DNA from: Arachis hypogaea
Lineage: Eukaryota; Streptophyta; Magnoliopsida; Fabales; Fabaceae
Direction: 5' to 3'
Assembly: GCF_003086295.3 (NCBI RefSeq)
Contig: NC_092053.1
Span: 87,605,671-87,669,670, forward strand
Length of the DNA stretch: 64,000 bases
Both the position numbers and the translations under genes were made by a program. Below, piece by piece: positions 7,014-57,773 of the stretch. The stretch's first letter is position 1. Each line of letters begins with the position of its first letter. The notes below the pieces were generated by a model. It searched no databases. It was not told the DNA's origin and worked only from the letters and a program-made list of their open reading frames with translations.

Positions 7014-8866
7014 TGAAACTCAAATAGGATAAAAAGAAGAGAATATACTATGAATTCCAAAATATCAATGAAACTTAGCTCCAATCAGATGAGCAGGACT
7101 TGTAGCTTTTTGCCTCTTGAATAGTTTTGGCATCTCACTTTATCCTTTAAGTTCAGAATGATTGGCATCTATAGGAACTTAGAATTTAGATAGTGTTATT
7201 GATTCTCCTAATTCAGTATGTTGATTCTTGAACACAGCTACTTTATGAGTCTTGGCTGTGGCCCTAAGCACTTTGTTTTCCAGTATTACCACCGGATATA
7301 TAAATGCCACAGACACATAACTGGGTGAACCTTTTTAGATTGTGACTCAGCTTTGCTAGAGTCTCCAATTAGAGGTGTCCAGGGTTCTTAAGCACACTCT
7401 GTTTTTGCTTTGGACCTCGACTTTAACCGCTCAGTCTCAAGTTTTCACTTGACACCTTCACGCCACAAGCACATGGTTAGGGACAGCTTGGTTTAGCCGC
7501 TTAGGCCAGGATTTTATTCCTTTAGGCCCTCCTATCCACTGATGCTCAAAGCCTTGGATCCTTTTTATTACCCTTGCATTTTGGTTTTAAGGGCTATTGG
7601 CTTTTTGCTCTTGCCTTTTGGTTTAAAGAGCTTTTGGCTTTTTCTGCTTGCTTTTTCTTTTTCTTTTTTTTTTTGCCATTTTTCTTTCTGCAAGCTTTGT
7701 TCTTCACTGCTTTTTCTTGCTTTAAGAATCATTTTTATGATTTTTCAGATTATCAAATAACATTTCTCCTTTTCATCATTCTTTCAAGAGCCAACATATT
7801 CAACATTCATAAACAACAATATCAAAAGACATATGCATTGTTCAAGCATTCATTCAGAAAACAAAAAGTATTGTCACCACGTCAAAATAATTAAACTAAT
7901 TTCAAGGATAAATTCGAAATCATGTACTTCTTGTTCTTTTGTTTTTAGAACAGTTTTCCTTTAAGAGAGGTGATGGACTCATAGGACATTCATAGCTTTA
8001 AGACGTAGACACTTAAACACTAATGATCATATAGTAAAGACACAAACATAAATAAAACATAAGGCTCAAAACTCAAAAAACAGGAAAATAAGAACAAGGA
8101 GATTAAGGAACGGGTTCACCTTAGTGAGGGTGGCGTCTTCTTCTTCTTGAAGAACCAATGGTGCTCTTGAGTTCCTCTATGTCTCTTCCTTGCCTTTGTT
8201 GCTCTTCCCTCATAGCTCTTTGATCTTCTCTAATTTCATGGAAGGTGCCATATGGTTATGGAAAATGAAAAAGCAGGGCTTTTTCCACACCAAACTTAAA
8301 ATATTTGCTCGTCCTCGAGTAAAAGAAGAAAGAAAGGAGGAGATGGAGATGTGTGGTGGGTTCGGCCAAGGGAGGGTGATAGTGTGTATGAGGGGTTTAT
8401 GATGGATGGATGTGAGTGGTGAAGAGAGTATGGAGAAGAGTGTTATGGAAAGGTGTGAAAAGGAGAGAAGAAGAGGTGGGGTAGGTAGGGATCTTGTGGG
8501 GTCCACAGATCTTGAGGGGTCAAGGACTTAGCATCTCTGCTCCATTGAGGTGTACAAAAACGCCCTTAGAGTGCAATCCTGGCGTTTAACGCCAGACTGC
8601 TGCTTGTTTCTGGCGTTAAACGCCAGATTTTCCCCTTTCTTGGTGTTGAAAGCCAACTTGATGCTTGTTTCTGGCGTTTAACGCCAGCTTGATGCTTGTT
8701 ACTGGCGTTCAAATGCCAGTAAGCTCTTCCTCCAGGGCGAGCTATTTTTAATACTGTTTTTCATTCTGTTTTTGATTTTTCAATAGTTTTTGTGACTTCA
8801 CATGATCATCAACCTACAGAAAACATAAAATAGCAATGGAAACTAAATAGATATAGTTAAATAACA
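7014..8866 (-). other. Element B 3' noncoding region with remnant of a third ORF
   Basis: Mostly noncoding. Around 8110-8240 the minus strand has a short coding remnant (MREEQQRQGRD, then EELKSTIGSSRRRR) that resembles the C-terminal tail of the third ORF of C. The main plant-transposon-protein domain is missing. GGCGTT...AACGCC palindromes lie at 8578-8725. Upstream of the remnant, 8286-8323 holds a second copy of the hairpin plus AAGTTTGGTGT motif (stem CTCG/CGAG). Confidence 0.6.
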
Positions 8867-8912
8867 TTGGGTTGCCTCCCAAGAAGCGCTTCTTTATTGT
8901 CTTTAGCTGGAC
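8867..8912 (-). promoter_or_regulatory. Element B post-pol two-hairpin module
   Basis: On the minus strand: GTC-loop-GAC, then AAGCGCTT, then the hairpin TTGGG-AGGCAA-CCCAA. It begins 12 bases after the pol stop. Homologous modules are in A, C, E and G. Confidence 0.55.
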
Positions 8913-8924
8913 CTTGCTGAGCTT

Positions 8925-18365: not shown

Positions 18366-19934
18366 AATCTTTGGTGCATCGATCATGAAAAACAAAATAA
18401 ACACCGTAAGATGAAAACATACAAAAGCTAGGAAGAGTGAATTGTTGGAATGAGGTGAATCACTAGAATTGAGTGGTGAATTGGTGTGACATTGATGAAA
18501 AATAGTTGTATGGGTTCTAACTTGCATGCGGTTTAGAACTCACACTCTAGTATTTAAAAATCATGTCACAATTATACAAATGAAAACATGCACTTCACTC
18601 ATTCTAGTGTGCTTGAGATACTTTAAAAGACTTGTAGGTTAAGTCAACCACAAAAGTAGTGAAGAGGCACGGAAGCATTCAAGCAATTAATTAAGCCATT
18701 GTGAAATTGGATGGTGCATGGACATTGATTGATGTGTAGGTAGATTTAGTGAACAAAATGGTATATGAAACTCACGCAACAATCAATGACACACATTGAG
18801 GTTGTTGTAACACCTAAGTGACATAGAGGTGAAACACATGGATGCTATGGAACTTAGAAAAAAGAAGATAGAAGTGAAAATCAATCACATAGCAAGCATG
18901 GCCCACAAAGCTTTACAAAGCTCAAAAATATGTCACTAGGTAAGCTTTGATCTAATTTCACAATTTCACAATCTCAATACATGAAATAGGTGATGGTCAC
19001 TTAGAACAATCCAAAAAAAATGCATTGATAATATACAATTGCCTAACAATGGATGATGAATGCATGGTGGCCAAAACATAAAATTCAAAGAGGTAAGATG
19101 CATGAAGGCAATGTAACAAGTACTTGGTATTCAAAAGTGTTAAACATGAAAAATTCCAAACCAAGTAATAAATTGCAACCTCAACAAAGGAATCCAACAA
19201 TGACAATAACGACAATGATGTTAAATTAACATCCCATTAGTAATAAGCAGCAGTAGACGGTAAACAAGATTAGTAATCCAACACTTATAATGGAAAACAA
19301 AAATTAAACTAACTAACTAACTAAAAGAAATGGTGTTATATGATGCTTGGTAGTGTTGGATGATGATTGAAGGGTGGAAAGAGAAGAGACGAAGGAAAGA
19401 AATGGAAAGAGGAGAAGAAAAGAAGGTGAGTGAAATAGGGCAATCCACGCATGCGTGTCATGTGCGCGTAAGCGTGGATTGATGAAAATGGAAGCGATGC
19501 GTATGCCCGGCTGATGCGTACGCGTGCATGGCAAAGCAGAGAGTCGGCGCAGATGCGCAAGGTACGCGTGCGCGTGCCTTGGGGCATAAAGTTGGCACAC
19601 TTCAGGCACAACTCTCGGGTGAATGTATGGGAAGTGGAAAAATCAATCCACACGTACACGTACATGGCGCGTCCGCGTGGATGGTCGAAATTGCTTGATT
19701 CACGCGTACGCGTGGAGTGCGTGTGCACATGGGTGGAGCTCTGTTTTTCAAAAATTTTCTATGTTTTTGCACCAAACCAAGCATTCCAAACCTCCAAACA
19801 ACTACCAAAACATCATAAAACCTTATTTAACGTACTAGACTACCAAACAAACTTAACAAATCAATCAAAACATGAGATTAAACCTATTTTACCAATATGT
19901 ACAAAAGGGAAAATGAAAAGATGTTACCATGGTG
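18366..19934 (-). other. Element E 3' noncoding tail
   Basis: Noncoding on the minus strand. 19445-19735 has clustered CGCGTACGCGT-type palindromes and related CACGC/GCGTG pairs, similar to those in solo LTR F (34915-35105). The rest to 18366 is plain AT-rich sequence. It breaks off at 18366 with no LTR. Confidence 0.6.
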
Positions 19935-19980
19935 AGGTGTCTCCCACCTAGCACTTTTGTTTATTGTCCTTAAGTTGGAC
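19935..19980 (-). promoter_or_regulatory. Element E post-ORF two-hairpin module
   Basis: On the minus strand GTCC-loop-GGAC, then AAAGTGCT, then AGGTG-GGAGA-CACCT. It lies 17 bases after the stop of the unknown ORF, in the position and order of the post-pol module of A, B, C and G. Confidence 0.5.
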
Positions 19981-19997: not shown

Positions 19998-21794
19998 TCA
20001 AGGTGGCTTGTGCTTGAATCCATCCTTGAACATCCACCAATGCTTGGATTTCCATTGTGCTTCATCATTCAAAGTTAGTAACTCCAAGCTTTGATGGAGT
20101 TCTTCACAAACCATAGGCTCCCAAAGTTGATCTTCCTTGTACGATCCGGGATCCCACACTTTGTTTTCACACCCGTCCTTGAGTTGATCATGGTGATTTC
20201 CTCCGGGTGGCAAAAGAGATGAATTCTCATGGAAGCACCAAACTATTCTCCTAGACCCGTCCAATTGAGCACTAGTCCAACCTTTGTATTTCATGTTTGA
20301 TGCATCAACCATAATGAGCCTTGATGTGCAACGCCAACCACAAAACATCTTTCTTTTACACTTCATCCCACAAAGCATCCTAAGTTGGCCATCCATTTCA
20401 AGCAAACCATATTCAAGTGAGATAATAAAGCTAATAGAAATGAGTTTCACCCATTCAAATGAAGGTGTAGATGGCAACCTAGGCAAAGGTGATTCCAAGG
20501 GTCTTGACAAGGCGTATTCAATTCCCATCCTCCTTTTTCTAAGGACTCCCACCTCTCCACAAGATCTCTTAATTTCAATCCTTTGTTCAACAATTTTATC
20601 TAAACCTTTTCCCTTACTCAAATCATAAATGGGAGGACGAAAGAGATTTACCTCCATATTGCTTTCAAATCCAATGGGAGAAGGTTCTTCATGTTCAAAG
20701 GATTCTTCACCACTAAGACTTGGTGCTTGATCTTCCTCACCAAGGGAACTCAATTCTTGCTCTATCCCATCCAAATCTTCATATGGAATATGCCTTGGAA
20801 GGTGTGCACTTCCCTCCCTAGCATCAATTTCAATCATCTTGGGGGGTTTCTTCATCTCTATGTTCCCAAGGAGGTTTCGCTCTCCTAAGTCTTCAACCAT
20901 CTCTTCCTCTACTTCAACAATTATGGCTTCCTCCAATTATTCCAATACAAAGCAACTTCCCTCATTCTCCACCAATCTCTCCTTCATGTTATGCTCTTCA
21001 TTTGATTCTCCACATGTAGCCATGGGAATTCCTTGAGTGTTTAAGCATTGGGGTGCTAACTGATTTACCACCTCATCTAAGGCAGCCGTGAATTGTTCTA
21101 CATCCTTTTTCATCTCCTCTTGTCCTTGAACAAGAACATTAAGGATATCATCCATTGGATGTTGGGGTGAATGGAAGGGTCCATCAATTTGGGGGAAGGA
21201 TTCAGAGTCGGAAGTTGGTTCTTCATGGTAGAGTTGTGGTGGTCTAATGTTTTCCCTTATTTCCATTTGTTGCACAACACACTCCAATGTTGCTTGGAAT
21301 TGTTCCAATGCCTCCTTAAAACGATCTCTTGACTCTTGCTCCTCTTGGATATCATGAGTAGGATCATATGGCTCTTAGATTAAAGGGCACAAATATTCTT
21401 CCTTGGGAGGTTGTGGTAGAAAGTAGTATTCATCTTGTGGTTGGAAATTTTCATACATTGGAGGTGGTTCATCTTGGTAATAATATAGAGGGGGTGGCTC
21501 TTGAAAATGTTGATGTTGGAATGGTGGTGGCTCTATATGTGGTTCATATGGCTCATATGGTTGTTGGTAGGATGGATATGGATTAGGGTCATATGAAGAT
21601 GGTTGGTGAAAGGTGGCTTATGAGTATGGTTGATGGCTATGTTGAGGATATGGCTCATAGGTGTATGGTGGTGGTTCTTGGAAGTCACAAGGAAATTCAC
21701 CATAACCATTGGATTGGTATGCATCATAGAATGGCTCTTCTTCATAATGCATTGGTGGAGGTTGTTGCCAAGAGGATTGATCATATGCATATGG
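19998..21794 (-). pseudogene. Element E protein of unknown function, main part
   Basis: I do not recognise a family. On the minus strand one frame runs for 599 codons to the stop at 19998, with three internal TAA stops near 21632, 21387 and 20937. The N-terminal third is rich in Pro, Tyr, Glu and Gln (PPPMHYEEEPF, PPPYTYEPYPQ and similar). The middle is acidic and helical-looking with periodic Gln/Glu. The C-terminal part is acidic (SLGEEDQAPSLSGEESFEHE), then mixed. The start lies in 35415-35519, cut off by solo LTR F. It occupies the gag position behind a PBS and leader. It could be a divergent gag-like protein, but I see no gag core or zinc knuckle. Confidence 0.6.
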
Positions 21795-26657: not shown

Positions 26658-26704
26658 GCTGGGTTGCCTCCCAGCAAGCGCTTCTTTACTGTCTTTAGCT
26701 GGAC
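26658..26704 (-). promoter_or_regulatory. Element C post-pol two-hairpin module
   Basis: On the minus strand GTC-loop-GAC, AAGCGCTT, then GCTGGG-AGGCAA-CCCAGC. The loop is as in A, B and G, while the stem has changed on both sides. Confidence 0.6.
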
Positions 26705-26716
26705 CTTGCTGAGCTT

Positions 26717-38050: not shown

Positions 38051-39010
38051 GATAGAATTTAAGTTAGGAGAGAATTCTTTTACCTTTTCATTTTACTAGT
38101 TTTCATACCTTTGTGATTGAATTCAGAGCTATGACTCACTAAACCCCCTTTCATTGGGTTAGGGAGCTCTATTGTAATTCAATGAATCAATAATAGTTTA
38201 TCTTCTTCTTCAATCTTTTCTCTTGAATTTTGTTAGAAAGCTTCTCGATCTAATTCCATTGGGTAGTTGTCTTGGGAAAGAAACTACCCATAATTGGAAT
38301 CCTTCGGAACCTTGGGAAAGGAATGGAGGATTCATGCTAGAGAAGCTTTCTCACAGTGAATTGGATTGGGGTTTGGATGGATATTGTGACATGTAATCCT
38401 ACCAAATTGTGGTTCATGAAATTGTGTGGTATAATCAGTGATCGAGCATCATCTCTTCTTATGAACATTTAAACCAAGGGATTGGGAATTTGTTTGTTTT
38501 TAGAGAGAATTGGTGAGCCAAGGGATTGGGATCCAATCATATAAGATTGCCAAGCAAAATTTAATGAACGCATTGGTTGAGGAAGAGATAAACATGTTTT
38601 GATTCGGAGATCTCAATATCTCCTATAACCCAATGAATTCCCCATCTCCGATTTCCACTTTCTCTTTACATTCTGCAACTCAATTCATGCAATCACCCCC
38701 ATTCCCTTTTAATTTCAGCAATTTAGCTTCTGCTCTTTAATTCATGCAATTTAAGATTCCGCCATTTCAATTTCTTGCCATTTACGTTTCCCGCCAATTT
38801 TACATTCCGCAATCCTCATCTAATTCTTGATTCCGCTCAACTAGACACACTTCTAATCCGAATTGCTCATTCAACCAATCCTTGTGGGATTCGACCTCAC
38901 TCTATTGTGAGTTTTTACTTGACGATAACCGGTGCACTTGCCGGAAGGAATTTTGCCGATCGTGCAATTTCCTAAATCGTGGCATAACTAGTTTATGCGC
39001 ATCAAGTTTA

Positions 39011-39028
39011 TGGCGCCGTTGCCGGGGA
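39011..39028 (+). other. Primer binding site of G
   Basis: TGGCGCCGTTGCCGGGGA, perfect tRNA-Asp complement, 6 bases after the LTR. Confidence 0.93.
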
Positions 39029-39287
39029 TTGGTTTTCGATTGACAATTCTCAAATTGGAAGTTAACTAGATTGAGCATTTTTCTTGCTTTGTTAATTCAG
39101 TTCAAGTTACTTGTTGAATTCTTAATTTCTGCACTCTGTTACATGCTTTCTTTCTTTATGCCTTTAAATTCAAGCAACTAACTCACTGACTCACTAACTA
39201 TTTGAATTAATTCCTCAACTACTCTAACCATACTCTTCCATTAACCAAGAGTATTTCACTTGTTTGTTGCCTGTGCTGTGTTCTTGT

Positions 39288-41720
39288 ATGACAGGTAGGA
39301 GAGGAGAGACATCAACCCCTCCATATACCGAACCAGAGAGGACCCTTCATAGACTTAGAAGGGAAGCAAGAGGGAAGAGAATACTGAGAGAAGAGGAATC
39401 TGAAGGAGAATCTGAGGACAATTTTGAGGAAGCTTTAGATCTCAACATGGATAGAGAAGTTCACAACCATGAGAGGGATGATGGAAACAACGCCATTCCT
39501 GAGAGGAGGGTTCTTGGTTCATACATAAACCCAACCTCTGGGAATTGTGGTAGCAGCATTCAGAAACCAACCATTCAGGCCAACAATTTTGAGCTCAAAC
39601 CACAGCTAATATCACTTGTGGAGAATCATTGTTCATTTGATGGGAGTGCTAATGAAGACCCAAACCAACATCTCACAAAATTCCTGAGAATTTGCGACAC
39701 TGTGAAGTCTAATGGAGTCCAGGAAGATGCCTATAAACTGCTTTTGTTCCCATTTTCACTTAGGGACAAGGCAGCTAAGTGGCTGGAATCATTCCCAAGG
39801 GGGAGCCTAACAACCTGGGATGAGGTGGAATGCAAGTTTCTGGCACGTTTCTACCCCCCACAAAAGGTCAATAGGCTTCGATCTGAGGTTCAGACTTTTA
39901 GACAACAAGATGTGGAAACTCTCTACGAGGCATGGGAGAGGTTCAAGGATTTGACAAGGAAATGCCCACCAGACATGTTCCATGACTGGGTGCAATTGCA
40001 CATTTTCTATGATGGACTTTCTTATGAATCAAGGAAGGCTGTAGACCATTCATCAGGAGGTTCATTGAACAGGAAAAAGACTGTGGAAGAAGCCATTGAA
40101 GTGATTGAGACAGTGGCTGAGAATGAGTACTACTATGCATCAGAGAGACACAACACTAAGGGAGTCATGGAGCTGAACCATGTTGATACAATTCTAGCCC
40201 AAAACAAGGTGTTTGCCAAGCAACTAGCAGAGCTCACCAGGAAATTAGAAACAAAGCAAGTGGCTGCAATACACACACAAGATCAAGAGGAAGCAAGCAC
40301 TGAAGGAGGTGATTGGGAAGAGGCCAATTATGTAGGAAATCAACAAAGGCAACCATATGATCCACATTCCAACACTTACAACCCAGGCTGGAAAAACCAC
40401 CCAAACTTTGGGTGGGGAAACCAGCAAAACCAACATAACAAGTCCACATACCAAAACTCCAACCAAAGATCATATCAAGCCACACAAAACACTTACTCCC
40501 AACCATCATATCATGGCCAAAATAGTCAACCTACCCAACCTAATCCGAACCAACAATTTCAAGATCAATTGAACAGGATAGAAGGAAGGCTGGCAAACAT
40601 GGGTCAGGACGTAAGTGAGTTGAAAATCTTTAGGGATGATGTGAGATCTACCTTAAGGAACCATGGTGAAAGACTAAAGAGGATGGAGTCTCAAGTAGGA
40701 GAGCTATCTCAACAAGCCCCCAAGTCAACTGCAGTGTTCCCTAGTGACACGGAAAAGAATCCTAAAGGGGAACAAAAGGGAGTGAGATGGGAAGACTGCA
40801 AGGCCATCACCATATTGAAGGAAGTCTCAGAAGAAGAAGGAATCAGACCCTCAGAACAGGAGCCAGAAATCTTGAAGGAAGGTTTGGAAGAAGCTAAGCA
40901 GGAAAGTGAAACTGATCAAGCCAAGGAACTGCAAAAAGGCACGATGGAAACATACCAACCAAAAGCACCATTTCCTCAGAGGTTAGGAGGAGGCGAAAAA
41001 GGGAAAACCTATTCAAGGTTTTTAGAGACATTTAAGTCTCTCCATATCAATATTCCCTTTCTTGAGATTCTCCAGCAGATGCCTACACATATCAAGTATT
41101 TAAAGGAATTGTTGAGCAAGAAAAGAGTTTTGAAGGGAGGACAAACGGTAACAATGAACAAAGAATACAGTGCCCTCATCAAGAAGGACACAGTCTCTAA
41201 GAAAACAGACCCAGGAAGTTTTCATATCCCCTGCATCATAGGGGAAACAAAAATTGACAGAGGATTCTGTGATCTAGGAGCTAGCATAAATGTGATGCCT
41301 CTAACTCTTATGAAGAGGCTACAACTGAATGAGGTGAGATCCACTGATGTAATCATACAACTGGCTGACAAAACTCAGAAGCAAGCTGAAGGGGTAGTTG
41401 AGAATGTGCTGGTGAAAGTGGGAGATTATTACTTCCCCACAGACTTTGTCATTTTGGACATGGAGGAAAGCTACTTACACCCTATCATTCTGGGCAGGCC
41501 ATTTCTAGCCACTACTAGAGCGCTCATAGATGTAGAACAAGGAGAGCTAATTCTGAGAATACATGATGAACAGCTCATTTTCAAAGTTTTCAAACCTGCA
41601 TCTGAGCCTGAACCAGAACCTGAAAAGCCTAAGGATGATAGTAGCCATCTGTGTTTGGAGGAAAGTAATCCAGCAGCTGAAACTCTAAAACAGTCCTTGG
41701 AAGGCAAACAAGAGTTGTAA
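39288..41720 (+). CDS. gag: Element G gag-protease
   Basis: An open frame of 810 codons. I chose ATG 39288 (MTGRRGETSTPPY) because D starts at the same place in its gag and A has the matching ATG-ACA; an open stretch reaches slightly further 5' without an ATG. Order: basic N-terminus LRREARGKR; retrotransposon gag core (LLLFPFSLRDKAAKWLESF, TLYEAWERFKDLTRKCP, DHSSGGS; residues about 130-270); Asn/Gln-rich linker (about 365-420); coiled-coil-like stretch; protease with CDLGASINVMPLTLMKRL (about residue 660) and GRPFLATTRALIDVEQGE. It ends in a Glu/Pro-rich tail and TAA. Lacks RT. Likely makes structural protein for particles. Confidence 0.92.
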   Translation: MTGRRGETSTPPYTEPERTLHRLRREARGKRILREEESEGESEDNFEEALDLNMDREVHNHERDDGNNAIPERRVLGSYINPTSGNCGSSIQKPTIQANNFELKPQLISLVENHCSFDGSANEDPNQHLTKFLRICDTVKSNGVQEDAYKLLLFPFSLRDKAAKWLESFPRGSLTTWDEVECKFLARFYPPQKVNRLRSEVQTFRQQDVETLYEAWERFKDLTRKCPPDMFHDWVQLHIFYDGLSYESRKAVDHSSGGSLNRKKTVEEAIEVIETVAENEYYYASERHNTKGVMELNHVDTILAQNKVFAKQLAELTRKLETKQVAAIHTQDQEEASTEGGDWEEANYVGNQQRQPYDPHSNTYNPGWKNHPNFGWGNQQNQHNKSTYQNSNQRSYQATQNTYSQPSYHGQNSQPTQPNPNQQFQDQLNRIEGRLANMGQDVSELKIFRDDVRSTLRNHGERLKRMESQVGELSQQAPKSTAVFPSDTEKNPKGEQKGVRWEDCKAITILKEVSEEEGIRPSEQEPEILKEGLEEAKQESETDQAKELQKGTMETYQPKAPFPQRLGGGEKGKTYSRFLETFKSLHINIPFLEILQQMPTHIKYLKELLSKKRVLKGGQTVTMNKEYSALIKKDTVSKKTDPGSFHIPCIIGETKIDRGFCDLGASINVMPLTLMKRLQLNEVRSTDVIIQLADKTQKQAEGVVENVLVKVGDYYFPTDFVILDMEESYLHPIILGRPFLATTRALIDVEQGELILRIHDEQLIFKVFKPASEPEPEPEKPKDDSSHLCLEESNPAAETLKQSLEGKQEL

Positions 41721-42062
41721 GAGTTAAAGCCACAAGAATCAATGGAAACAAATCAGAAGGATCCTCCTGGCATAAGGGTCAATGGAGAAATCCTCAAGAG
41801 AAAGGGAAGAATGGTAGGGAAATTGCCAAGAGGGTGGAGAAACAAGAAAATTCCCACTGAAGGTTTTTCTCCGGGAGATAAAGTGATATCAAGTCATTAT
41901 CTGCCAATCCCACCTAGCCTCAAAACCATTCCTTCCCAGCTCCCTCAAGTGTTCACAATCAGGAAAGTTCTTTCTATGGAACATTTAGAAGTCATGAAGG
42001 AATCAAATGGGGACGTTCTCATAGTGAGAGGAGAAGACATCAAGCACTACAATCCACCCTAA
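41721..42062 (+). CDS. Element G short frame after the gag-protease stop, resembling the integrase C-terminus
   Basis: Same frame as gag-protease, separated only by TAA at 41718. It has an ATG at 41742 and stops at 42060. FSPGDKVISSHY and VRGEDIKHYNPP sit where pol of A and B has [14 protein letters not shown] and the final KHYLGG. It is therefore read as the diverged 3' tail of pol, with RT, RNase H and integrase core lost between. Whether it is translated, by readthrough or from its own ATG, cannot be seen. Confidence 0.55.
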   Translation, partial: ELKPQESMETNQKDPPGIRVNGEILKRKGRMVGKLPRGWRNKKIPTEGFSPGDKVISSHYLPIPPSLKTIPSQLPQVFTIRKVLSMEHLEVMKESNGDVLIVRGEDIKHYNPP

Positions 42063-42074
42063 CAAGGGACAACC

Positions 42075-42121
42075 GTCAAGCTAGTGACGTTAAAGAAGCG
42101 CTTCATGGGAGGCAACCCATG
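42075..42121 (+). promoter_or_regulatory. Element G post-pol two-hairpin module
   Basis: GTCAA-GCTA-GTGAC, then AAGCGCTT, then CATGGG-AGGCAA-CCCATG. It begins 12 bases after the stop at 42060-42062. Confidence 0.6.
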
Positions 42122-43169
42122 TTTTAGTATCCTTACTCTTTATTGTTTTGCTTTACATCTAATAAAGCATGGTTCTTATGCATGAACTTGAATCCTCAGG
42201 ACAACTGTTGATAAAGTGCACTAAACATTGCATGTAAATTACAATTGGTCTCTAAGTTTGGTATGCCTGAAGGCACTCCCAAATCTTATTCAAATTGTAT
42301 TCAATCTTTCATTCAAGGTGCACGACCAAACATTAAGTTTGGTGTTCCTTTTGAACACAGTTAATGAAAAGCAAGAAGTTCCTCTGGATTTAGAAATTCA
42401 TGACAAGTATACCATTTGCATGTTTTAATACTTTGATTTCAATTACTTTAGGTAGTAAAATTGTTTAGGATCAAAGCGCCAAAGTGACTAGGATTTATTA
42501 GAATTATGCACATTCATTAAGGACAACCAACATGGATTTCATGTCATCAGGAGACATTACCAAACACTAAGTTTGGTGTCCAGTAATAAGTGTGCATACA
42601 TACAAAGGTCACGGCTATAAGCTCAGGAAGTCAATCATTGATTTACAATTCAAAAAGAAGGAAAAACATGTACAAGTACTATTCATTATTCACATGACCG
42701 AAAAAAATGATAGCAAATTTGTTTGTTTGTGCAGGTACAAAAGGGAAGATAAGAATGGAGGAAAAAGACAAGGGGGAGGTACGGTGCTTGGTCAAAAAGG
42801 AAGTTCACAAGTCTTTGAAACTAGCACATGGGAAAAGGAAGTTCTGCATGAAAAGATAGCTACATGTACAACCTAATGCACTCAAAATACTTCCAAGAAA
42901 ATGAAAAGCAATTCGTCCTTCTCCCTAATTCATATATTTACCATCAGGCCACCCTTCACAAATCACCCTAGCCGTCCATTTTTCACTTACGGGCACTATA
43001 AAGAACCACTTGGGGAACGAGTTCCACACCACCAAATCTCCTTCATGCACATTTTCTTTCATCATAGCATAACTATCTCTTGCCGAAAACAGCCTCACCA
43101 CACTTCCAACAACACTTCTTGCTTCACCTTGTCAACTTTAGCTTGTCACTTACCAAAACTAAAGAACCA
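42122..43169 (+). other. Element G spacer between pol tail and third ORF
   Basis: No convincing gene. It has TAAGTTTGGT motifs at about 42255, 42332 and 42564. The last two lie in small hairpins of the ACCAAAC...GTTTGGT kind. Confidence 0.55.
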
Positions 43170-44699
43170 ATGGCAGCCTCATCTAGCCACAAAAGAAGAA
43201 AAGACAAGCAGCCAATGGAGGAGAACAGGGAATTCGATGCATGGAGATACAAATCAGTTTTCCATGAGATTCAAGCCGAATGGATGAGACCTAAAACGGT
43301 ACTAGCTGAGGTTCCCTTTGACCTTGAAAAGGATGAGTTCCCAGGTGTTTGGGAGAAGATCAAAAAGAGGAAGTGGGAGCTCCTGACTAAGCCAATCACT
43401 AAAATCAACATCAACCTAGTGAAAGAGTTTTATGCAAATGCAGTGAGGGAGGATTCAACCGTGAAACCCACATACAAAAGCTATGTGAGAGGGGTGGAAG
43501 TTGACTTCAGCCCCAAGGCAATCATGAAAACTCTTGGCCTGAAAAACATACGTTTCAGCCAAGCAAGTTATGAGGAAAGGATGATAGGAGAACCTGACTA
43601 TACGACTATTGCAGAAGACCTTTGTGCCATCAGAGCTGAATGGGTGAGAAAAACAAGAGGGGCTCCAAGAGTCTTGAGAAGGGGAGACCTAACACCTGAA
43701 GCTAAAGGGTGGTATGCAATAGTTAGGAGATCCATCCTACCCACTGCAAACTCTTCAGAAATAGTCCCTAAAAGAGCCATCTTGCTACATTGCATTATGG
43801 TGGGAGGGGAGATCAAAGTTCATAAACTCATTGCTGAACAGATACAAGAGCTTAGTGAGAAAAGTGACCCTAAATCCTGGCTCCACTTCCCTAGCACCAT
43901 CATTAGACTATGCATCGATGCCCAAGTACCACTTGAAGATGAAAGACCGAATTGGCTATATCCTGGATTGGCCATAACTGCGTACAGAATGACTCTTGGC
44001 CCAATTGCTCCAAGACATACAAAAAGAAGAAATGAAGAAGGGCAACAAGCAGAAGCAGAGCAAGAAGCAGAGCAAGAAGGACAAGAAGGAGAGGACGGAG
44101 AAGAAGAGCAAGAAGAGCAAGGAATTCCAGAAAGAAGACAACAAATTCCCAGAGACCCCATGGATATGAGCAGAATGCAGGAAATCATAGAAGGAATGTC
44201 TCAACAATACATGAGGTCTCAGGAGAGACAAGAGGACTTTCACCTAAAAATGATGGATATGCAAAGGAACTTTGAATCAAGATTCTTAGATCTGCAAAGG
44301 GAACAGAATTTACAATTACAGGAATCCTTCAGCCACATATGCCAACACCAAGATGCCAATGTCTTGGCAATCAAGGAAGCCACCACTTTACAGAATGCAA
44401 GATACTCAGTTCAAGCTGATTACAACATCAGTTCGCAAATCAAGCTTAACTACATAGGGGAACATTTACACAAGATGGACCCAGCATTCCCAGCTTTTGA
44501 TGAGTATTTCAAAGGGAGGAAAGAAGGAGAAATAAACAAGGCAATGATCCTTGAAAAAGGAGTGGAAGAAACAATGAAAAAGGCTGGATTCTGGAAAAAG
44601 CTCATAAGAAAAGACAAAGGAAGTACAAGTGGTCAAAAAGGGGTAGGAAGCAAGAAGAAGCAGGATCCCAAGAATCAAGAAGAACCAAGCAATAAATGA
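43170..44699 (+). CDS. Element G third ORF: putative plant transposon protein domain
   Basis: 509 codons, no stops. ATG 43170 (MAASSSHKRRKDKQ) is chosen because the basic N-terminus matches MAPKGKQPTSRGKK of C; the open frame continues a little upstream. Residues about 20-285 form the globular domain (FPGVWEKIKKRKWELLTKP, FYANAVRED, YVRGVEVDFSP, WYAIVRRSILPTANSSEIV, LLHCIMVGGEIKVHKLIAEQ). Then comes a Glu/Gln-rich stretch (about 290-330), a long coiled-coil-like region with Met/Gln/Arg, and a Lys-rich tail. It has no signal peptide and no membrane helix. Position is env-like, between pol and the 3' LTR, but function is unknown. Its integrity beside two nearly identical LTRs fits a recent active copy. 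Confidence 0.82.
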   Translation: MAASSSHKRRKDKQPMEENREFDAWRYKSVFHEIQAEWMRPKTVLAEVPFDLEKDEFPGVWEKIKKRKWELLTKPITKININLVKEFYANAVREDSTVKPTYKSYVRGVEVDFSPKAIMKTLGLKNIRFSQASYEERMIGEPDYTTIAEDLCAIRAEWVRKTRGAPRVLRRGDLTPEAKGWYAIVRRSILPTANSSEIVPKRAILLHCIMVGGEIKVHKLIAEQIQELSEKSDPKSWLHFPSTIIRLCIDAQVPLEDERPNWLYPGLAITAYRMTLGPIAPRHTKRRNEEGQQAEAEQEAEQEGQEGEDGEEEQEEQGIPERRQQIPRDPMDMSRMQEIIEGMSQQYMRSQERQEDFHLKMMDMQRNFESRFLDLQREQNLQLQESFSHICQHQDANVLAIKEATTLQNARYSVQADYNISSQIKLNYIGEHLHKMDPAFPAFDEYFKGRKEGEINKAMILEKGVEETMKKAGFWKKLIRKDKGSTSGQKGVGSKKKQDPKNQEEPSNK

Positions 44700-45730
44700 G
44701 AGGTGGTCTCGTTCCTTAATAATCAAATGATAATTGGTGAATTGTCTTTATGAGCTTTCTTTCATTATAAGTCATTTAAGTTTTTAATGTGAAGTTTCTA
44801 GTATGTTTGTCTGTTTATTGCTTTGAATAAAGTGAATGCCTAGATGTTTGGATATAACTTCACCTTCTTAAACAAATGCTTGCCATGCTTGTTCTGTTTC
44901 CAAAAATAAAAGAAAAGTTTGAACAAAAGTAACTTGGCTCAATTAGTGACAAATCAAGTAGAATTAAGTGGTGGTATGCATGCTTGATTGTTTAGTCAGA
45001 TCACTGGAAATAGAGTGTAGAATTATCATTTTTTGTGTAGAAATTGAAAACTGTCTATGGGTCTTGATGAATAAATGTCTTTGGCCATGAAAAAGAAAGA
45101 AAAAGAAGAAGAAAAAGCCACTGAAAAAGGGCAACCAAAAAGCAAAAAAAAAAAATTGAGAAAATAAGCTAGGCATCAATGGTTTGAACTTCTGAGACAA
45201 ATGCCTGTGGTGTTTATGTATTAAGGATATGCTTGGATGAATAGGTTCTGAGGAGTGTTTCAACACTTGGTAATTTGGGTTAACTAACCCGGGATTATCA
45301 ACCAAAAATCCATTATCAAGAGCAACCTAAATGCAAAACATTTAGTCACACAAAGAGGTGCTGGGCACCAATGTCTCAAGAAGAAATGTGAACTAAAATG
45401 CCTGGAGTGGATATGTGTAGTGCACTGATAAGAAAAAGAAAATGCCAAAGGCTTGTGCAACACATGACACTAAGCAAACAAGGAGAAAAGGAGCTCTAAG
45501 AAAAAGAAAAGAAAAACAAAGAAGAGAAAAGTGCCAAGGACATAAGAATAACAAGAGGCCATAGCAGTGTTTGATGGATGCAATGAAAAAGTGATAATCT
45601 TACCTGATAAGAATGAAAAAGTGATGCTGCAACTTTCTGCATAAAACCCTTCTGATGAACTTCAAGTGCTTACTAATATAGCCAATGTAATTGCTTTCTG
45701 TTTCATACTTTCTTCTCAAATAACTCAGGA
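44700..45730 (+). other. Element G 3' noncoding region
   Basis: Noncoding, A-rich, with purine runs (about 45080-45150 and 45490-45540). Its text is shared with the 3' region of A (49900-50345 and 57299-57730). Confidence 0.6.
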
Positions 45731-45767
45731 CTTGCTTAGGGACAAGCAAGTATTAAGTTTGGTGTTG
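45731..45767 (+). promoter_or_regulatory. Element G pre-LTR hairpin and polypurine-tract substitute
   Basis: CTTGCTT-AGGGAC-AAGCAAG (45731-45750), then TATTAAGTTTGGTGTTG directly against the 3' LTR. Confidence 0.6.
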
Positions 45768-47937
45768 TGATGCCAAGGCATCTTAGGCGAGTTTCACTAG
45801 CTTTTTTTTGTTAGTTTTAGTTGTTTTATGCACTTTCTTGAGCTTAAAGTAACCAAGAATGGTTAAATGAATAACAAAGCAATGAACCATCCAAACAGTA
45901 TGATTTTTATGCAAATTTCATGAGTTTTTAGTTATATTTCTTGAATGCTATGAATGGAAGATTCTCATGAAAATTTGCAAGACTTTGATGCAGTTGTTTG
46001 GATGATTTCAGGAAAGAATAGGCTAGGCAAGGAAGCAACAAAAATCAATAAAGGAAGCTTGAATATCACATGTGGAGTTTAAGTTCTAGTTTAAGCTTAA
46101 ACTGGAACTTAAACGGCCGAAATCATGAAAGCTGAGGAAAGGGTGAAAGTGGCGTTTAACCTCCAGTTTAACCTTAAACAGGAAGTTAAACGCCAGAAAT
46201 GGGAAATGCACCAGGGAGCCATTTCCACGTTTAAGCTCCAGTTTAACCTTAAACTGGAGCTTAAACGTGTTCGACCTCCAGGGCTACCTTTCTCTGCTTC
46301 CACGTTTAAGCTCCAGTTTAACCTTAAACTGGAGCTTAAACGTGTTTGACCTCCAGGATGGCTTTCTCTATTTCCACGTTTAAGCTCCAGTTTAACCTTA
46401 AACTGGAGCTTAAACGTGTTCGACCTCCAGGGCTGCTTTTCCTATCTCCACGTTTAAGCTTCAGTTTAACCTTAAACTGAAGCTTAAACGTGTTCGACTA
46501 CGTTACCCTCCAGGGCTGCCTTCTTCCATTTCCACGTTTAAGCTTCAGTTTAACCTTAAACTGAAGCTTAAACGTGCTTCCACAAAAAGGCATCACTGGA
46601 AGTGTCTGGCGTTTAAGCTGCAGTTTAAGCTTAAACTGCAACTTAAACGCCACTATTGGAAAAGGTTTCCGGGCCAAAAATATTGCAGTTTAAGTTAGCT
46701 TTTGAGCACAAACATTAACTTAAACTTACTCTGGTATGAAACCCAATTGAATATCATGGTTTATGGGATTGGGCCTGAAGGATTGATGAGTCTGGAATTT
46801 CAATTTGTTGAGTCATGTGTCATTACTTGATTATCACTTAGTTGGCTCAATGAATGTTACAGAATGTGGATCAGCAGCCTCATCAAGATTATGGATCATA
46901 AACCCAAAGCAAAAGGAAAGCAGGGAGAGGCCTCAAAGCCCAAGAAACACAACAGAAGCTCAATATAGAAAGTGTATAAATAGGATAGAATTTAAGTTAG
47001 GAGAGAATTCTTTTACCTTTTCATTTTACTAGTTTTCATACCTTTGTGATTGAATTCAGAGCTATGACTCACTAAACCCCCTTTCATTGGGTTAGGGAGC
47101 TCTATTTTAATTCAATGAATCAATAATAGTTTATCTTCTTCTTCAATCTTTTCTCTTGAATTTTGTTAGAAAGCTTCTCGATCTAATTCCATTGGGTAGT
47201 TGTCTTGGGAAAGAAACTACCCATAATTGGAATCCTTCGGAACCTTGGGAAAGGAATGGAGGATTCATGCTAGAGAAGCTTTCTCACAGTGAATTGGATT
47301 GGGGTTTGGATGGATATTGTGACATGTAATCCTACCAAATTGTGGTTCATGAAACTGTGTGGTATAATCAGTGATCGAGCATCATCTCTTCTTATGAACA
47401 TTTAAACCAAGGGATTGGGAATTTGTTTGTTTTTAGAGAGAATTGGTGAGCCAAGGGATTGGGATCCAATCATATAAGATTGCCAAGCAAAATTTAATGA
47501 ACGCATTGGTTGAGGAAGAGATAAACATGTTTTGATTCGGAGATCTCAATATCTCCTATAACCCAATGAATTCCCCATCTCCGATTTCCACTTTCTCTTT
47601 ACATTCTGCAACTCAATTCATGCAATCACCCCCATTCCCTTTTAATTTCAGCAATTTAGCTTCTGCTCTTTAATTCATGCAATTTAAGATTCCGCCATTT
47701 CAATTTCTTGCCATTTACGTTTCCCGCCAATTTTACATTCCGCAATCCTCATCTAATTCTTGATTCCGCTCAACTAGACACACTTCTAATCCGAATTGCT
47801 CATTCAACCAATCCTTGTGGGATTCGACCTCACTCTATTGTGAGTTTTTACTTGACGATAACCGGTGCACTTGCCGGAAGGAATTTTGCTGATCGTGCAA
47901 TTTCCTAAATCATGGCATAACTAGTTTATGCGCATCA
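45768..47937 (+). repeat. Element G 3' LTR
   Basis: 2,170 bp, 85 bp shorter than the 5' LTR because one palindrome unit (equivalent to 37256-37340) is missing. Eight units lie at about 46076-46650. TATA box at 46975-46983. Confidence 0.95.
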
Positions 47938-48372: not shown

Positions 48373-49209
48373 TCAAATACATTTTGGTAGCAGTGGAGTA
48401 TGTCTCAAAGTGGGTGAAGCAATAGCCACAACCACATGTGATGCACAAATTGTCCTTTAATTCCTAAAGAAGCACATTTTCACTAGATATGGAGTGCCTA
48501 ATGGACTTGTTAGTGATGGTGGCAGTCATTTCTATAATAAATAGATGGAGAAACTACTTCAAAAATATGGGTGATGCATAAAGTAGCCATACCTTATCAC
48601 CCACAGACTAATGGCCAAGCAAAACTTGCAAATAGGGATTTGAAAAGGATTTTAGAGAAGACTGTGGGAGCCACCAGAAAAGATTGGGCCAGAAAGCTAG
48701 AAGATGCACTCTGGGCATATAGGACAACATTTAAAACTCCTATTGGAAAGTCCCCTTTTCAGCTGTCATATGGAAAATCTTGTCACCTCCCTGTAGAGCT
48801 TGAGCATAAAGCTTTCTGGGCCACTAAACTCCTCAACCTTGATTCTCAAGCAGCAGGGGAAAAGAGGCTACTGCAACTAAATGAGTTGGATGAGTTTAGG
48901 CTAGAAGCTTATGAAAATGCTAAGATAAACAAGGAAAAAGCTAAGAGGTGGCATGACAAGAAGATCTCAAGGAAGGAGTTCAAACCAGGACAGCAAGTAC
49001 TCTTATATAACTCCAGGCTCAAAGTCTTCCCTGGTAAACTCAAATCCAAATGGACTGGTCCTTATTTGGTAACAAAGGTTTTCCCTTATGGAAGCATTGA
49101 ATTGCTAGATAAAGCAACAAAGAGCCATTTCACAGCAAACAGTCATAGGGCAAAACATTACTTGGGAGGCCAATGGGACAAAGAAAAGGAAGTTCAGAAC
49201 CTGAGCTGA
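48373..49209 (+). pseudogene. pol: Element A integrase core and C-terminus
   Basis: Resumes the integrase of A after E (KYILVAVEYVSKWV). 48373-48570 has frame changes and stops; 48571-49209 is open. Features: [19 protein letters not shown], where Asp replaces the Glu of the usual NRE in the D,D,E core; [18 protein letters not shown]; and the C-terminal [27 protein letters not shown]. It ends at TGA 49207. Not functional because of the upstream breaks. Confidence 0.9.
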
Positions 49210-49224
49210 GAAAGAATGAAGGAT

Positions 49225-49271
49225 GTCAAGCTATTGACATTAAAAGAGCGCTTGTTGGGAGGCAACCCAAC
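49225..49271 (+). promoter_or_regulatory. Element A post-pol two-hairpin module
   Basis: GTCAA-GCTA-TTGAC, then AGCGCTT, then GTTGGG-AGGCAA-CCCAAC. It begins 15 bases after the pol stop. Confidence 0.6.
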
Positions 49272-50349
49272 TAGAGGTAGTTTTCTTTTCCAACTATTTC
49301 AATAAATAGGTTGAGTAGTCTTATCTGTATTGCAAGGAGCTAAGTTTGGTGTTGCACTCCAAAATAAATTAAGGGAGAATGAAGGATGCTAAGTTTGGTG
49401 TTCCACAAAAAAAAATCTCAATTGAAAACACATTTTCACCTTTTGCATAAATAGTTGCTAGCTCCAAGCAATCAGAAAAATTATTTAGCCATTGTTTGTT
49501 TTCTAGTTTTAGTTCTGTGACCTTCAGCAAAGGCACAAGGTGTCATATATATATATATATATATGTGGTTGACTGGTTGCATAAGAAACATTAGCAAGGA
49601 ACTAAGTTTGGTATTCACACACAAAAAATAAGTTCAAAAGCCTACAAGCAAATCTTGCATACTAACCAGCTGCCTAAGGGCTTCAGAAACAAGCAAATTT
49701 TAAGGATTATGCAGAAAAACATTCAATCTGTGATAAGGGTTCTGCATCATAATCCAAAGGAGGAACAACAAAGAGAAATAATGATGACAGAAGGAAAAGC
49801 TGAGAGGCATTCCCAACAGGTTGTATTGACATTTAATCCTTGTTGCTTTGAAGTATTTTAACTTGGGGATTCCTATATGTCTTGCTGAAGTGTTCAATTA
49901 GGTGCAAGTGTAAATGTTTGCTAAGAATGCAAGCCTGCATATTATGCTCGTCATAACTCATCAGCCTGAATTCTGTTTTGTTTCCCTTCTGCATAAATAA
50001 AAGAAAAATGTTTGAAACAAGAAAGTGATTGTCCAATGTTGTAGAAATTAGAATGAAATTCAATGGTGGTACTTGTCTGATTTAATGATTAGCTCAATAA
50101 TAAATGCTGCATAATAAAAAGTTCTTTGAAGTGTGAATTGGTTTGCTGCCATAAAGTCTTTTATTAATGAATGTCCCTTGAGAATGAAGCAAAATAAGAA
50201 GAAAAAGAAAGAGAAAAGCCAAGAATTGGCAAAGAAACAAACAATAAGGCTAGACACCAATAGTTTGGACCATAGGACATATGCCTGTGGTATTTTTGTA
50301 CTAGGATATGCTTGGACAAGTAGGTTCTGAGGAGTATTTCAAAACTTGG
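49272..50349 (+). other. Element A 3' noncoding region, first part
   Basis: Noncoding. TAAGTTTGGTGTT-like motifs at about 49343, 49390 and 49603. An (AT)10 microsatellite at 49545-49564. No third ORF like that of G is seen. D interrupts it after CTTGG (50345-50349). Confidence 0.6.
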
Positions 50350-52676: not shown

Positions 52677-54677
52677 TTAACCCAAGTCACATAGAGCCTT
52701 TTCCACTATGATTTTCCCTATGATGCAAGGGATCTGGAAACTTCCAGGGTCCTTCAATTTCTGGGGTAGTTTGTGTTGAATGATGGCACTACATTCTTCG
52801 GTTAGTATCACGGTCTCATTGCTCTTCCAGCTTCTCTTCTTAGTCATTAATTCCTTTAAAAACTTGGCATAGAGTGGCATTTGCTCTATTACTTCAGCAA
52901 AGGGTATGTTGATTTGTAGTTTCTTGAAGATTTCCAAAAATCTCAAGAACTGGTTGTCGTCCCCCTTCTTCTTTATTTGCTGAGGGAATGGAGCTTTTGG
53001 GACGTCTGGCTTTAGTATTTCTCCTTTTTGCTGTGAACTGGGAATGGGAATTTGGACTCTGTCTCGCTCCTTTTCCTTTTCATTTGAGTTCTTCTCTTGT
53101 GAATTCTTGGGAATTTCCTTCAATTCCTTCCCACTTCTGAGGGTGATAGCCTAACATTCTGCTCTTGGATTTGGATCAGTGTTGCTGCACAGGTTATGAC
53201 TGGGAATTTGCTTGAATAGGTAGCCAATTTGTGTCTCAAGTTTCTTGATGGCAGCATCTTGATTCTGCATATTGGACCGTACTTCCTCTCAGAATACTTT
53301 ACTATCCTGGACTTTCTTACATATGCCTTCAAGTAGAGTCTCAATCCTTGATAGTCTTTCTTTCGATGATGGTGAGTTGAGATTGGAGGGATGAGAAGAG
53401 CCATTTTGGCTATGGTATGGATGTTGAGGTGTGTTGTTAAGTGGGTGCTGATATGATCTCTGTGTGGAATGTTGGTGAGCCGCATGGTTGTTGGGGTTGT
53501 GATGTCTCTGATCTTGGCTTTGGTATTGTTGGTTTCCCCACCCAAAGTTTGGGTGATTCCTCCAACCAGGATTATACATTTTGGAGTATGGGTCATGGTT
53601 CTGCCTAGGTGAAGTTCCAATGTAGTTGGCTTGCTCCTGACTACCCTTGGCTTCTTCATTCACTCCTTCTTGAGTTGCTACTGAAGTGGTGATTGCTGCT
53701 ACTTGATTCCTCTCCATCTTCTTGGTAAGGTTAGCAAACTGCTTGGTAATCATCTTGTTTTGAGCTAGCAGTGCATCCACATTGTTCAGCTCCATCACTC
53801 CTCTAGTGTTGCCTCTTTCAGAAGCATAGAAGTAGTCATTCTCAGCTACAATCTCAATGACATCTATGGCTTTTTCAATGGTCTTCTTTTTGTTCAGAGA
53901 TCTCCCGGATGAATGGTCTACTGCCTTCTTTGATTCATAAGAAAGATCTTCATAGAAAATGTGTAGCTGTACCCATTCATTGAACATATCTGGTGGGCAT
54001 CTTCTTGTCAGATCCTTAAACCTCTCCCATGCTTCGTAGAGAGTCTCACTATCTTGTTGCCTGAAAGTTTAAACATCAGCTCTCAACCTGTTGATTCTTT
54101 GAGGAGGATATAATCTTGCCAAGAATTTGTTCACCACATCTTCCCAGGTTGTTAAGCTTTCCTTCGGAAAGGATTCCAGCCATTTAGATGCCTTGTCCTT
54201 GAGTGAGAAGGGGAATAGAAGCAGTCTGTAGGTGTCAGGATGAACACCATTAGACTTCACAGTATCACATATCCGCAGGAAGGTGGTTAGATGTTGATTG
54301 GGATCTTCTTGCACACTTCCTCCGAATGAACAGTTGTTCTGAACAACGGTGATGAGCTGTGGCTTTAGTTCAAAGTTGTTGGCATGTATGGTTCGCTTTT
54401 GGATGCTACTTCCACAGTTTCCTGGGTTTGGATTGATGTAGGATCCCAGAACTCTTCTCTCTTGCCCAGCATGATGCACTGGGCCTTCTCTGCCATGGTT
54501 GTGAGCCTCTTCTTCATGATGGTTCTCCATATTCTCATCCATGTCTGGTTCAAAATACTCCTCTTCTTCCTTCGTACCAACTACTCTCTTTCCTCTTGCT
54601 TCCCTCCTTAATCTAAGGAAGGTCCTCTCAGGTTCAGAATCAAAGGAAGTTGAAGCACTGCTTCTTTTACCTGTCAT
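52677..54677 (-). pseudogene. gag: Element D gag and truncated protease
   Basis: ATG at 54677 (MTGKRSSASTSFDSEPERTF). One frame down to 52677 with three in-frame stops (about 54066, 53286 and 53151). Core: RLLLFPFSLKDKASKWLESF, FNEWVQLHIFYEDLSYESKK, DHSSGRS. An Asn/His/Gln-rich linker and EVIEQMPLYAKFLKELM follow, up to KALCDLG of the protease. There it joins the 3' LTR through a few odd bases (about 52670-52676). Close to G gag in order and sequence. Confidence 0.9.
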
Positions 54678-57298: not shown

Positions 57299-57736
57299 CC
57301 ACTTGGATTAACTAATTTGGGATTACCAACCAAAAGTCCACTATCAAGAGCAACCTAGTTACAAAGCATTTATTAATCCAAAGAGATGCTGGGCATCAAT
57401 GTTCCTATGAAGAAATTGTGAGCCATGTGTCTATGGTGAAGAAATGTTGAGAAAAATTGAGCCAAAAGGCTGCTCCAACATTTGCCACAAAGCCTTCATT
57501 AAAGAATAAGCTTTCTAAGCAAAGGAAAGAAAGAAAAAGCTAAGAGGGATCAACCAAAAGCAAGGCATTATAGCAGCAATTCTAATGAACCTTTGAGGAA
57601 ACATTTCTTATCTATTAGCAAAGTAATAAGTAAGCTGCATTTGTCTGCATAAAACCCCATGAATCAAGTAAAATTATCTGCTAAATAAGGACATGTATAT
57701 TTCTCTATTGCATTTTATTTCCTCTCATGTTTAGTG
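57299..57736 (+). other. Element A 3' noncoding region, second part
   Basis: Continues 50349 after D and aligns with 45262-45730 of G. No ORF. Confidence 0.6.
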
Positions 57737-57773
57737 CTTGCTTAGGGACAAGCAAGGTTTAAGTTTGGTGTTG
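57737..57773 (+). promoter_or_regulatory. Element A pre-LTR hairpin and polypurine-tract substitute
   Basis: CTTGCTT-AGGGAC-AAGCAAG (57737-57756), then GTTTAAGTTTGGTGTTG abutting the 3' LTR. Confidence 0.6.

Follow-up and report, generated by a model that had tools for sequence, protein, structure and literature searches.

Foamy virus CAS-II lies in the 3′ part of pol, and the constitutive transport element (CTE) of the Mason-Pfizer monkey virus type, a structured RNA folded as one long stem with repeated internal loops, lies in the 3′ part of the retroviral genome. Foamy viruses need CAS-II as a second cis element, which reportedly contains packaging elements and purine-rich tracts, or internal polypurine tracts (PPTs), according to the excerpted account (PMC7828637). 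Here we describe a module of ~50 nt with two hairpins, carried by each of five elements (A, B, C, G and E) in a 64,000-nt stretch of Arachis hypogaea DNA (NC_092053.1, positions 87,605,671 to 87,669,670, forward strand); this whole stretch is called the window below. The elements that bear the module are Ty3/gypsy retrotransposons. The module looks like a selected, undescribed signal, one that the elements probably need in order to copy themselves. With reservations we favor reading it as an RNA element that acts in cis, is conserved among Athila-type Ty3/gypsy retrotransposons and would work in packaging, a reading drawn from sequence comparison and falling just short of what we would call probable.

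Packaging of this kind would be similar in logic to the action of foamy virus CAS-II, which is the nearest precedent. CAS-II is a second cis-acting RNA region beyond the 5′ packaging signal (PMC7828637, as excerpted). The plant module, too, is found at the 3′ end of pol (in A and G, by eye in the neighbourhood of copy L036, and in the protein fragments P0050, P0054 and P0074), and in E it follows another open reading frame (ORF). The two systems belong, however, to different retroelement families, PPT-like copies adjoin only some of the plant modules (11/22), and the likeness is one of placement and presumed function.

The stability element (RSE) of Rous sarcoma virus (RSV) is a structured element placed directly after a retroelement stop codon, a position taken by the plant module in only part of its copies, since it is sometimes found inside an ORF; the RSE follows gag and its minimal form has 155 nt (PMC2925335, in the part excerpted). 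For Sireviruses, which are also plant long terminal repeat (LTR) retrotransposons, short conserved inverted repeats near multiple PPT copies have been described, but these are Ty1/copia elements and the motifs are located near the 3′ LTR, in the LTRs or beside ENV; the excerpted text describes none after pol in Ty3/gypsy (PMC2829016). Athila, Calypso and Diaspora represent the type that carries the module, Ty3/gypsy with pol followed by an env-like region (none in Diaspora), and in the excerpts of their account neither a hairpin nor a conserved non-coding motif is mentioned downstream of pol (PMC1142308). Text searches of the literature returned no description of the module in the parts of the texts they reached, and an earlier description elsewhere in the literature is possible; the search for GGGAGGCAACCC gave a sole match, on an unrelated subject.

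A two-hairpin module in five elements of the window

The order of parts is the same in the five elements: hairpin 1 (GTCA/TGAC type), an A-rich linker, AGCGCTT, and hairpin 2 with at most six pairs and a loop that is usually AGGCAA. The AGCGCT within the linker region is a self-complementary 6-mer. In element A (plus strand) hairpin 1 occupies positions 49224..49239 (TGTCA/TGACA, loop AGCTAT), the A-rich linker with GAGCGCTT positions 49240..49253, and hairpin 2 positions 49254..49271 (GTTGGG/CCCAAC around AGGCAA). Element G, on the same strand, has hairpin 1 at 42074..42089 (CGTCA/TGACG) and hairpin 2 at 42104..42121 (CATGGG/CCCATG around AGGCAA). On the minus strand, hairpin 1 of C is located at 26690..26705 and its hairpin 2 at 26658..26675 (GCTGGG/CCCAGC around AGGCAA); for B the positions are 8898..8913 and 8866..8883 (CTTGGG/CCCAAT around AGGCAA, the outermost pair unformed, so that 5/6 pairs are present). 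Hairpin 1 of both B and C is reduced to three firm pairs, a GTC/GAC core whose flanking pairs are unformed. Element E (minus strand) has hairpin 1 at 19966..19980 (GTCC/GGAC, 7-nt loop), detected with a covariance model from which E-type copies had been left out, and hairpin 2 at 19931..19948 (GGTGGG/CTCACC around AGACAC; six pairs, one of them G-U), which is the predicted fold as well. Hairpin 2 was also recovered by the covariance model in G, C, B and E.

The first-pass annotation, made from the letters of this DNA alone, had reported these sequences and stems in A, G, B and C, and they are present as it described them. Its copies in B and C are real, with the correction that both lie on the minus strand; the motif it took to be common to all reads GAGCGCTT in element A rather than AAGCGCTT, a difference of one mismatch. 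The stem AGGTG/CACCT that it had noted in E is only an alternative register, E being a full member with both hairpins (19931-19980, minus strand). The loop it had called fixed is indeed AGGCAA in A, G, B and C, but E has AGACAC, and thus the hairpin-2 loop is not fully fixed. Two variants of the module can be told apart: one combines AGCGCU with the AGGCAA loop, the other AGUGCU with a loop of AGACAA type and a longer hairpin-1 loop. A degenerate core pattern, with up to three mismatches allowed, matched four times in the window compared with a mean of 0.00 in 100 shuffles.

Covariation in DNA copies

DNA copies were taken mostly from one genome. One set of copies was chosen by left-side letters with the right side unseen, and another mostly from a listing that displayed the right side as well, both exceptions being among those taken. 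Two matches to the loose pattern that lack the module, L033:2650 and L039:7451, were excluded from the covariation tests. As MAFFT had set hairpin 1 of E-type copies one column off (alignment A1), a rule-based alignment was used in the scripts.

Both hairpins vary with pairing kept. Among 65 copies (50 distinct), hairpin-2 pair N2 was TA in 18, AT in 13, GC in 8, CG in 7 and other in 4 of the distinct sequences, while pair N1 was GC in 15, CG in 13, GT in 10, AT in 6 and other in 6, including one T-G wobble. In hairpin 1, pair 4 was AT (28), CG (10), GC (2), GT (1) or other (9), and pair 0 was TA (18), CG (16), TG (1) or other (15). All four pairs exceeded permutation expectation (p 0.0011 or less), whereas control positions one step outside each stem showed no association, with 11/50 and 16/50 paired, below expectation. 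In alignment A5, which comprised 33 hand-chosen copies with the E-type left out, 93.4% of cells pair vs 81.8% in shuffles and 20-41% with the 3′ partners slid, and cells changed on both sides numbered 38 vs 11.0. RNAalifold, with no structure supplied, predicted the whole of hairpin 2 (six pairs) and three pairs in hairpin 1.

Since relatedness of the copies matters, we wrote a tree-aware test, a simplified R-scape-like procedure of our own design, in which the changes of each column were re-placed at random on the tree in 300 runs. In the 71 copies used (56 distinct, partly hand-picked) 576 of the 616 pair cells pair, compared with a null mean of 510.6 and a maximum of 559 (0/300), and the covariation summed over six variable stem pairs was 193 vs a null maximum of 75 (0/300). 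When all 703 column pairs were ranked, stem pairs took the first four places and five of the first six; a tree built from unpaired columns only gave an identical ranking. Stem covariation is thus beyond the tree-aware null, in aggregate only. Six copies of this set had been picked for C-G at hairpin-2 pair 3, which makes the pair-3 score a selected one; without them the best four were pair 0, pair 4, N2 and N1, with E of 0.4 to 3.5.

Three tallies (98/100, 87/100 and that of the changed first G of GGG) were counted by eye over the first 100 places of many. When the left base of hairpin-2 pair 3 was required to differ from T and its partner was left free, C-G was found in 87 of the first 100 listed (1,012 in all), mostly from one family; the same 100 included six C-A, four G-A and three A-A.

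Protein fragments and reading frames

In the motif frame ALxGRQPy, the two bases of pair N2 can be read from residues x and y, and those of hairpin-1 pair 0 from the residues on either side of QAxD, on the assumption that codon letters are those seen in the DNA copies. We collected 61 different proteins, mainly from metagenome sources, of which 60 could be parsed (P0061 could not), giving 45 distinct strings. N2 was paired in 34 of these 45, compared with 21.7 expected (p<1e-5), and pair 0 in 32/38 vs 26.9 expected (p 0.0009); cross-controls gave p 0.75 and 0.10. Nine rows without Q were left out of the pair-0 test (P0005-P0008, P0010, P0019, P0028, P0033 and P0035). Pair 0 is broken in six of these rows and kept in one; with the nine rows, GPAKD-type strings included, omitted, the pair-0 test is kinder than the whole set would be. 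The named protein sources are Stylosanthes scabra and Trifolium medium and, for a second frame, Cuscuta epithymum and Stylosanthes again; the 34 second-frame matches were judged by eye only, and P0095 looks unrelated.

One could suppose that what is conserved is a peptide at the C-terminus of pol (..KEALxGRQP..), given that the frame is open in many copies and yields 61 different database hits. Pol homologues, however, enter the motif in two frames. The C-termini of P0050 (E 2e-27 to element A pol) and P0054 (2e-12) continue into it in one frame and that of P0074 (3e-9) in a different one; protease-type tails enter it as well, in P0044 (6e-22 to an element C ORF) and P0076 (6e-11 to P0044). 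The variable codon of the GRQP frame, moreover, differs among DNA copies at positions 1 and 2, with position 3 nearly always T. A Pfam search of these protein fragments was uninformative. The structure is kept while the frame changes, and the module also comes after protease or an unrelated ORF and survives in an element that lacks reverse transcriptase and integrase, which at the level of sequence argues that it is not a conserved peptide; the frame switch largely refutes that explanation, which we reject as the least credible of those considered here.

Evidence for and against a selected RNA structure

The first-pass annotation had inferred a selected RNA-like structure, and the data agree with a base-paired element under selection: across families both hairpins change on both sides, and the protein fragments back one pair in each hairpin. 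The first interpretation is thereby supported in part, with packaging, export and translation as candidate roles. Neither of the outcomes that would speak against it, a missing excess of compensatory changes or mere neutral drift, was seen in data mostly from one genome.

Several observations weigh against this interpretation. No single pair reached E<0.05 in the tree-aware test: the best values were 0.07-0.08, and the remaining four stem pairs on the list had values of 0.3 to 2.3. Hairpin-1 pair 1 showed no association (46/50 vs 44.7 expected, p 0.14) and was outside the nine best column pairs, and the B/C family breaks hairpin-1 pairs 0 and 4. In A5 the number of further pair types was not above shuffles (177/500). 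Counting each residue combination of the protein test once brings N2 to p 0.056 (0.10 without wobble), with pair 0 still at about 0.005, and N2 is unpaired in 13/60 protein rows, ten of them C-A. Fold z-scores are mostly unremarkable: -3.5 for A (54 nt, 49222-49275), -1.1 for G, +0.6 for B, -0.5 for C, -1.5 for E and +0.1 for L012, a copy described below; the stretches folded for B, C and E did not include the 5′ arm of hairpin 1, and L012 has a minimum-energy fold in which this hairpin is not formed. Finally, G-U cells outnumber A-C cells only twofold in DNA copies (28 vs 13), and in the protein set the counts are 9 G-U vs 15 A-C.

With these counts, wobble pairs do not settle which strand or molecule folds. 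One alternative is a DNA-level site, with the palindromic AGCGCT and the inverted repeats binding a protein or forming a cruciform in a role in transcription or chromatin. Inverted repeats and palindrome are equally visible in DNA and A-C cells are not rare, but G-T is seen at N1 in 14/56 distinct copies, which is fine in RNA and a mismatch in DNA, and placement at ORF ends and conserved loops fit RNA better; we regard a DNA-level site as improbable.

We also considered, and rejected, fixed pairing of the hairpin-1 loop AGCU with AGCGCU as a pseudoknot or kissing loop: the loop of L015, AGATGG, and the E-type loop break it, and in neither of these does any register hold by eye. A possible third hairpin is located around the pol stop (49170-49224 and 42050-42074, as well as in L050, L084 and L085), with a sequence that differs in each family.

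Abundance and occurrence in other sources

The exact core AGCGCTTNNTGGGAGGCAACCC is present in 42,228 copies in the 2.557-Gb genome and the E-type core variant in 21,310; reversed control patterns gave 0 in both searches, and the controls of the other pattern searches in this genome also gave 0, which rejects chance. An element of ~50 nt, with at least 63,000 copies in one genome, persists behind unrelated ORFs as well as in other plants. A covariance model of 33 sequences, with no E-type copy among them, detected 22 copies in 264 kb around and including the window (E 1.9e-5 or better) and recovered all nine E-type (E and F8) copies (E 1.5e-10 to 1.9e-5). A weak match at 26362-26424 of the window (E 0.11) was excluded from the count. 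The window gave no match to the module in Rfam at the gathering score.

Pattern and protein scans of viral contigs found nothing, and a plasmid collection gave no pattern match. A collection of genome contigs gave 12 matches. Eleven of them, judged by eye to be bacterial chance matches, contain the core by selection and scored 13-21 bits in the covariance model (E 0.0039 to 0.52); the remaining one, L012, we consider plant DNA in a bacterial assembly, because its contig has plant-type transposase and gag domains. L012, L014 and L015 carry an intact motif with diverged flanks in plant-like stretches inside the assembly of Candidatus Burkholderia humilis, a leaf symbiont. In L012 and L015 hairpin-1 pairs 1 and 4 differ, each time on both sides. 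Among the protein fragments, P0024, P0057, P0062 and P0074, from other plant sources, also have the motif intact and the flanks diverged.

Intact motifs between diverged flanks, together with family-level covariation that in aggregate exceeds the tree-aware null, speak against the module being no more than neutral remains of a single recent ancestor. In favor of that account, numerous copies are dead and have decayed on one side only: where the first G of GGG has changed, CCC is kept in 91 of 100 copies listed and an A-T replacement is seen in three. Such one-sided decay of dead copies is as expected if selection acts only on active elements, and we give the neutral account hardly any credence. 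In a separate observation, L082 combines F1-type upstream sequence with a B/C-type module, which suggests recombination between families.

Host elements and position of the module

In B and C we identified gag, protease, reverse transcriptase (RT), RNase H and integrase by Pfam or by mutual similarity. RNase H precedes integrase, as in the Ty3/gypsy order: B has a protease-RT ORF followed by an RNase H-integrase ORF, while C has an RNase H-integrase ORF and a gag-protease ORF by Pfam and RT by similarity to B. The LTR pairs of B and C are 94.2% alike. Element G (36750-47937) has LTRs 99.4% alike over 1.7 kb, a gag-protease ORF (39264..41720, plus strand) and, downstream of the module, an env-like ORF of family PF20167 (43080..44699, plus strand); searches of this element for domains of RT, RNase H and integrase found none. 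It looks like a recent insertion of a young non-autonomous element with an env-like ORF. A PF20167 env-like ORF is located between pol and the 3′ LTR in G and C, and likewise in the L036 neighbourhood, where env-like was assigned by Pfam and RT, integrase and the position of the module by eye; none was seen for A, B and E among the window's 13 ORFs of at least 200 aa, all of which were scanned. Judging by the order of their genes, the presence of PF20167 and the appearance of the primer-site region, the host elements seem to be Athila-type. The module could serve as a handle to find and group Athila-type elements that have lost coding parts.

The pol C-terminal ORF of A (48571..49209, plus strand) aligns to the C-terminal part of the integrase-bearing ORF of B and is closed by a TGA that lies 15 nt upstream of GTC in hairpin 1. 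An integrase-tail-like frame of G ends 12 nt before GTC, as does the corresponding pol-like frame of B and C, in which the listed pol ORFs stop earlier. The upstream ORF of E (19998..20936, minus strand) stops 17 nt before GTC; it had no Pfam family at or above the cut-off and no match elsewhere in the window. F1-type copies have no pol directly before the module. Depending on the element, the module follows pol, protease or an unrelated ORF, and in 11/21 neighbourhood copies an ORF of at least 120 aa ends at -34 to +22 nt from the start of the 64-nt module. The position just after the pol stop, as first annotated, holds for A and G and also for B and C if their pol-like frame is considered; it does not hold for P0050, P0054 and P0074, whose ORFs run through the motif, nor for elements in which protease or another ORF precedes. 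These ORFs make a strictly stop-codon-linked role less likely. A stop-to-motif spacing that is always a multiple of three was rejected on account of E (17 nt) and of the F1-type copies, which do not follow pol directly.

This placement also bears on export or stability, the second mechanism that we weighed. Like the CTE or the RSV element, the module might help an unspliced RNA with a long 3′ untranslated region (3′UTR) to exit the nucleus or to evade nonsense-mediated decay (NMD). It lies near the last gag-pol stop in A and G, ORFs end near its start in the 11/21 copies counted above, and sequence after the stop would read as a long 3′UTR; the RSE adjoins the gag stop and aids NMD evasion, and the pol 3′UTR is suggested to act likewise (PMC2925335, as excerpted). 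Against this, ORFs pass through the motif and end beyond it in P0050, P0054 and P0074, and the minimal RSE is three times as long as the module (same source). We consider export or stability unlikely, though worth keeping in view.

A role in translation, through read-through of the stop, reinitiation or initiation of the env-like ORF, seems very unlikely. The spacing of 12-15 nt that A, G and, in their pol-like frame, B and C have would suit it, and fold energy around the stop is slightly better than that of shuffles: the stretch just upstream of hairpin 1 has a mean fold z of -0.66 vs 0.00 for the adjacent control (35 each), which is suggestive only. Frames after the stop, however, are short and differ, some ORFs end beyond the motif, and E keeps the module after an unrelated ORF.

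Proposed role of the module

Elements obliged to borrow proteins, or with an unrelated ORF, still keep the module; hence its action is probably in cis, on the full-length RNA (or DNA) that is to be copied. What the sequences themselves show is the placement where gag-pol, or a truncated version of it, ends, the copy number, the aggregate covariation, independence of frame and retention without RT or integrase domains. If the module works in packaging, Gag or Pol would bind both hairpins, AGCGCU possibly assisting the pairing of two genomes, and binding would select the RNA for the particle. Taken as mechanism alone, packaging is a serious possibility that we hold with somewhat more doubt than the composite reading given at the outset; a further point on the opposite side is that classical packaging signals are located near the 5′ end.

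To our knowledge, the choice of genomic RNA by plant LTR retrotransposons, as well as the success of elements without RT or integrase, is largely unexplained. One could speculate that the module is a mobilization tag of the Athila clade, a packaging signal read by autonomous elements and borne by non-autonomous partners. We think this rather doubtful, a shade below export or stability; if true, the tag would mark many of one plant's high-copy retrotransposons. It may be that each variant of the module belongs to particular partners, for the AGUGCU variant is common to the L036 neighbourhood and to the E-type elements, whose ORF is unrelated.

Polypurine-tract-like copies and other observations

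On the sense strand, 22 copies of the PPT-like sequence AAGTTTGG[TG] were found within 700 nt upstream or downstream of the 22 modules, where ~4 were predicted from the local 0.14 per kb per strand. They lie downstream in A, G, L041, B, L042 and one F1-type copy (L040), and upstream in F1-type copies. There was none within 700 nt of the nine E-/F8-type modules, nor of C and L031, and no antisense copy downstream of modules (upstream antisense copies were not counted). The hairpins might place RNase H cleavage or plus-strand priming at flanking PPT-like copies (AAGTTTGGTGTT) during reverse transcription. The excess over prediction is in line with such a function, as is the mention of a single additional PPT in Athila4 and Calypso linkers (PMC2829016, as excerpted). 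Such a copy adjoins just 11/22 modules, however, and being variously upstream, downstream or absent, these copies have no fixed geometry, which argues against a role in reverse transcription; we deem it as improbable as the DNA-level site.

Directly before the 3′ LTR of B, C, G and a fourth element we saw a hairpin of TTGCTT..AAGCAA type followed by AAGTTTGGTGTTG (45730-45767 and 57735-57775; on the minus strand near 6977-7015 and 23473-23510). AAGTTTGGTGT recurs within elements as PPT-like copies. Upstream of position 5241 of L040 (F1-type) the gag-protease ORF closes with repeated NSKFGVG-like units, which are the in-frame translation of the PPT-like motif. The only Rfam hits of the window are two snoR71 matches, at 39873-39976 (minus strand) and 53983-54089 (plus strand), antisense in or beside the gag ORFs of two elements; the snoR71 family may therefore include retroelement sequence.
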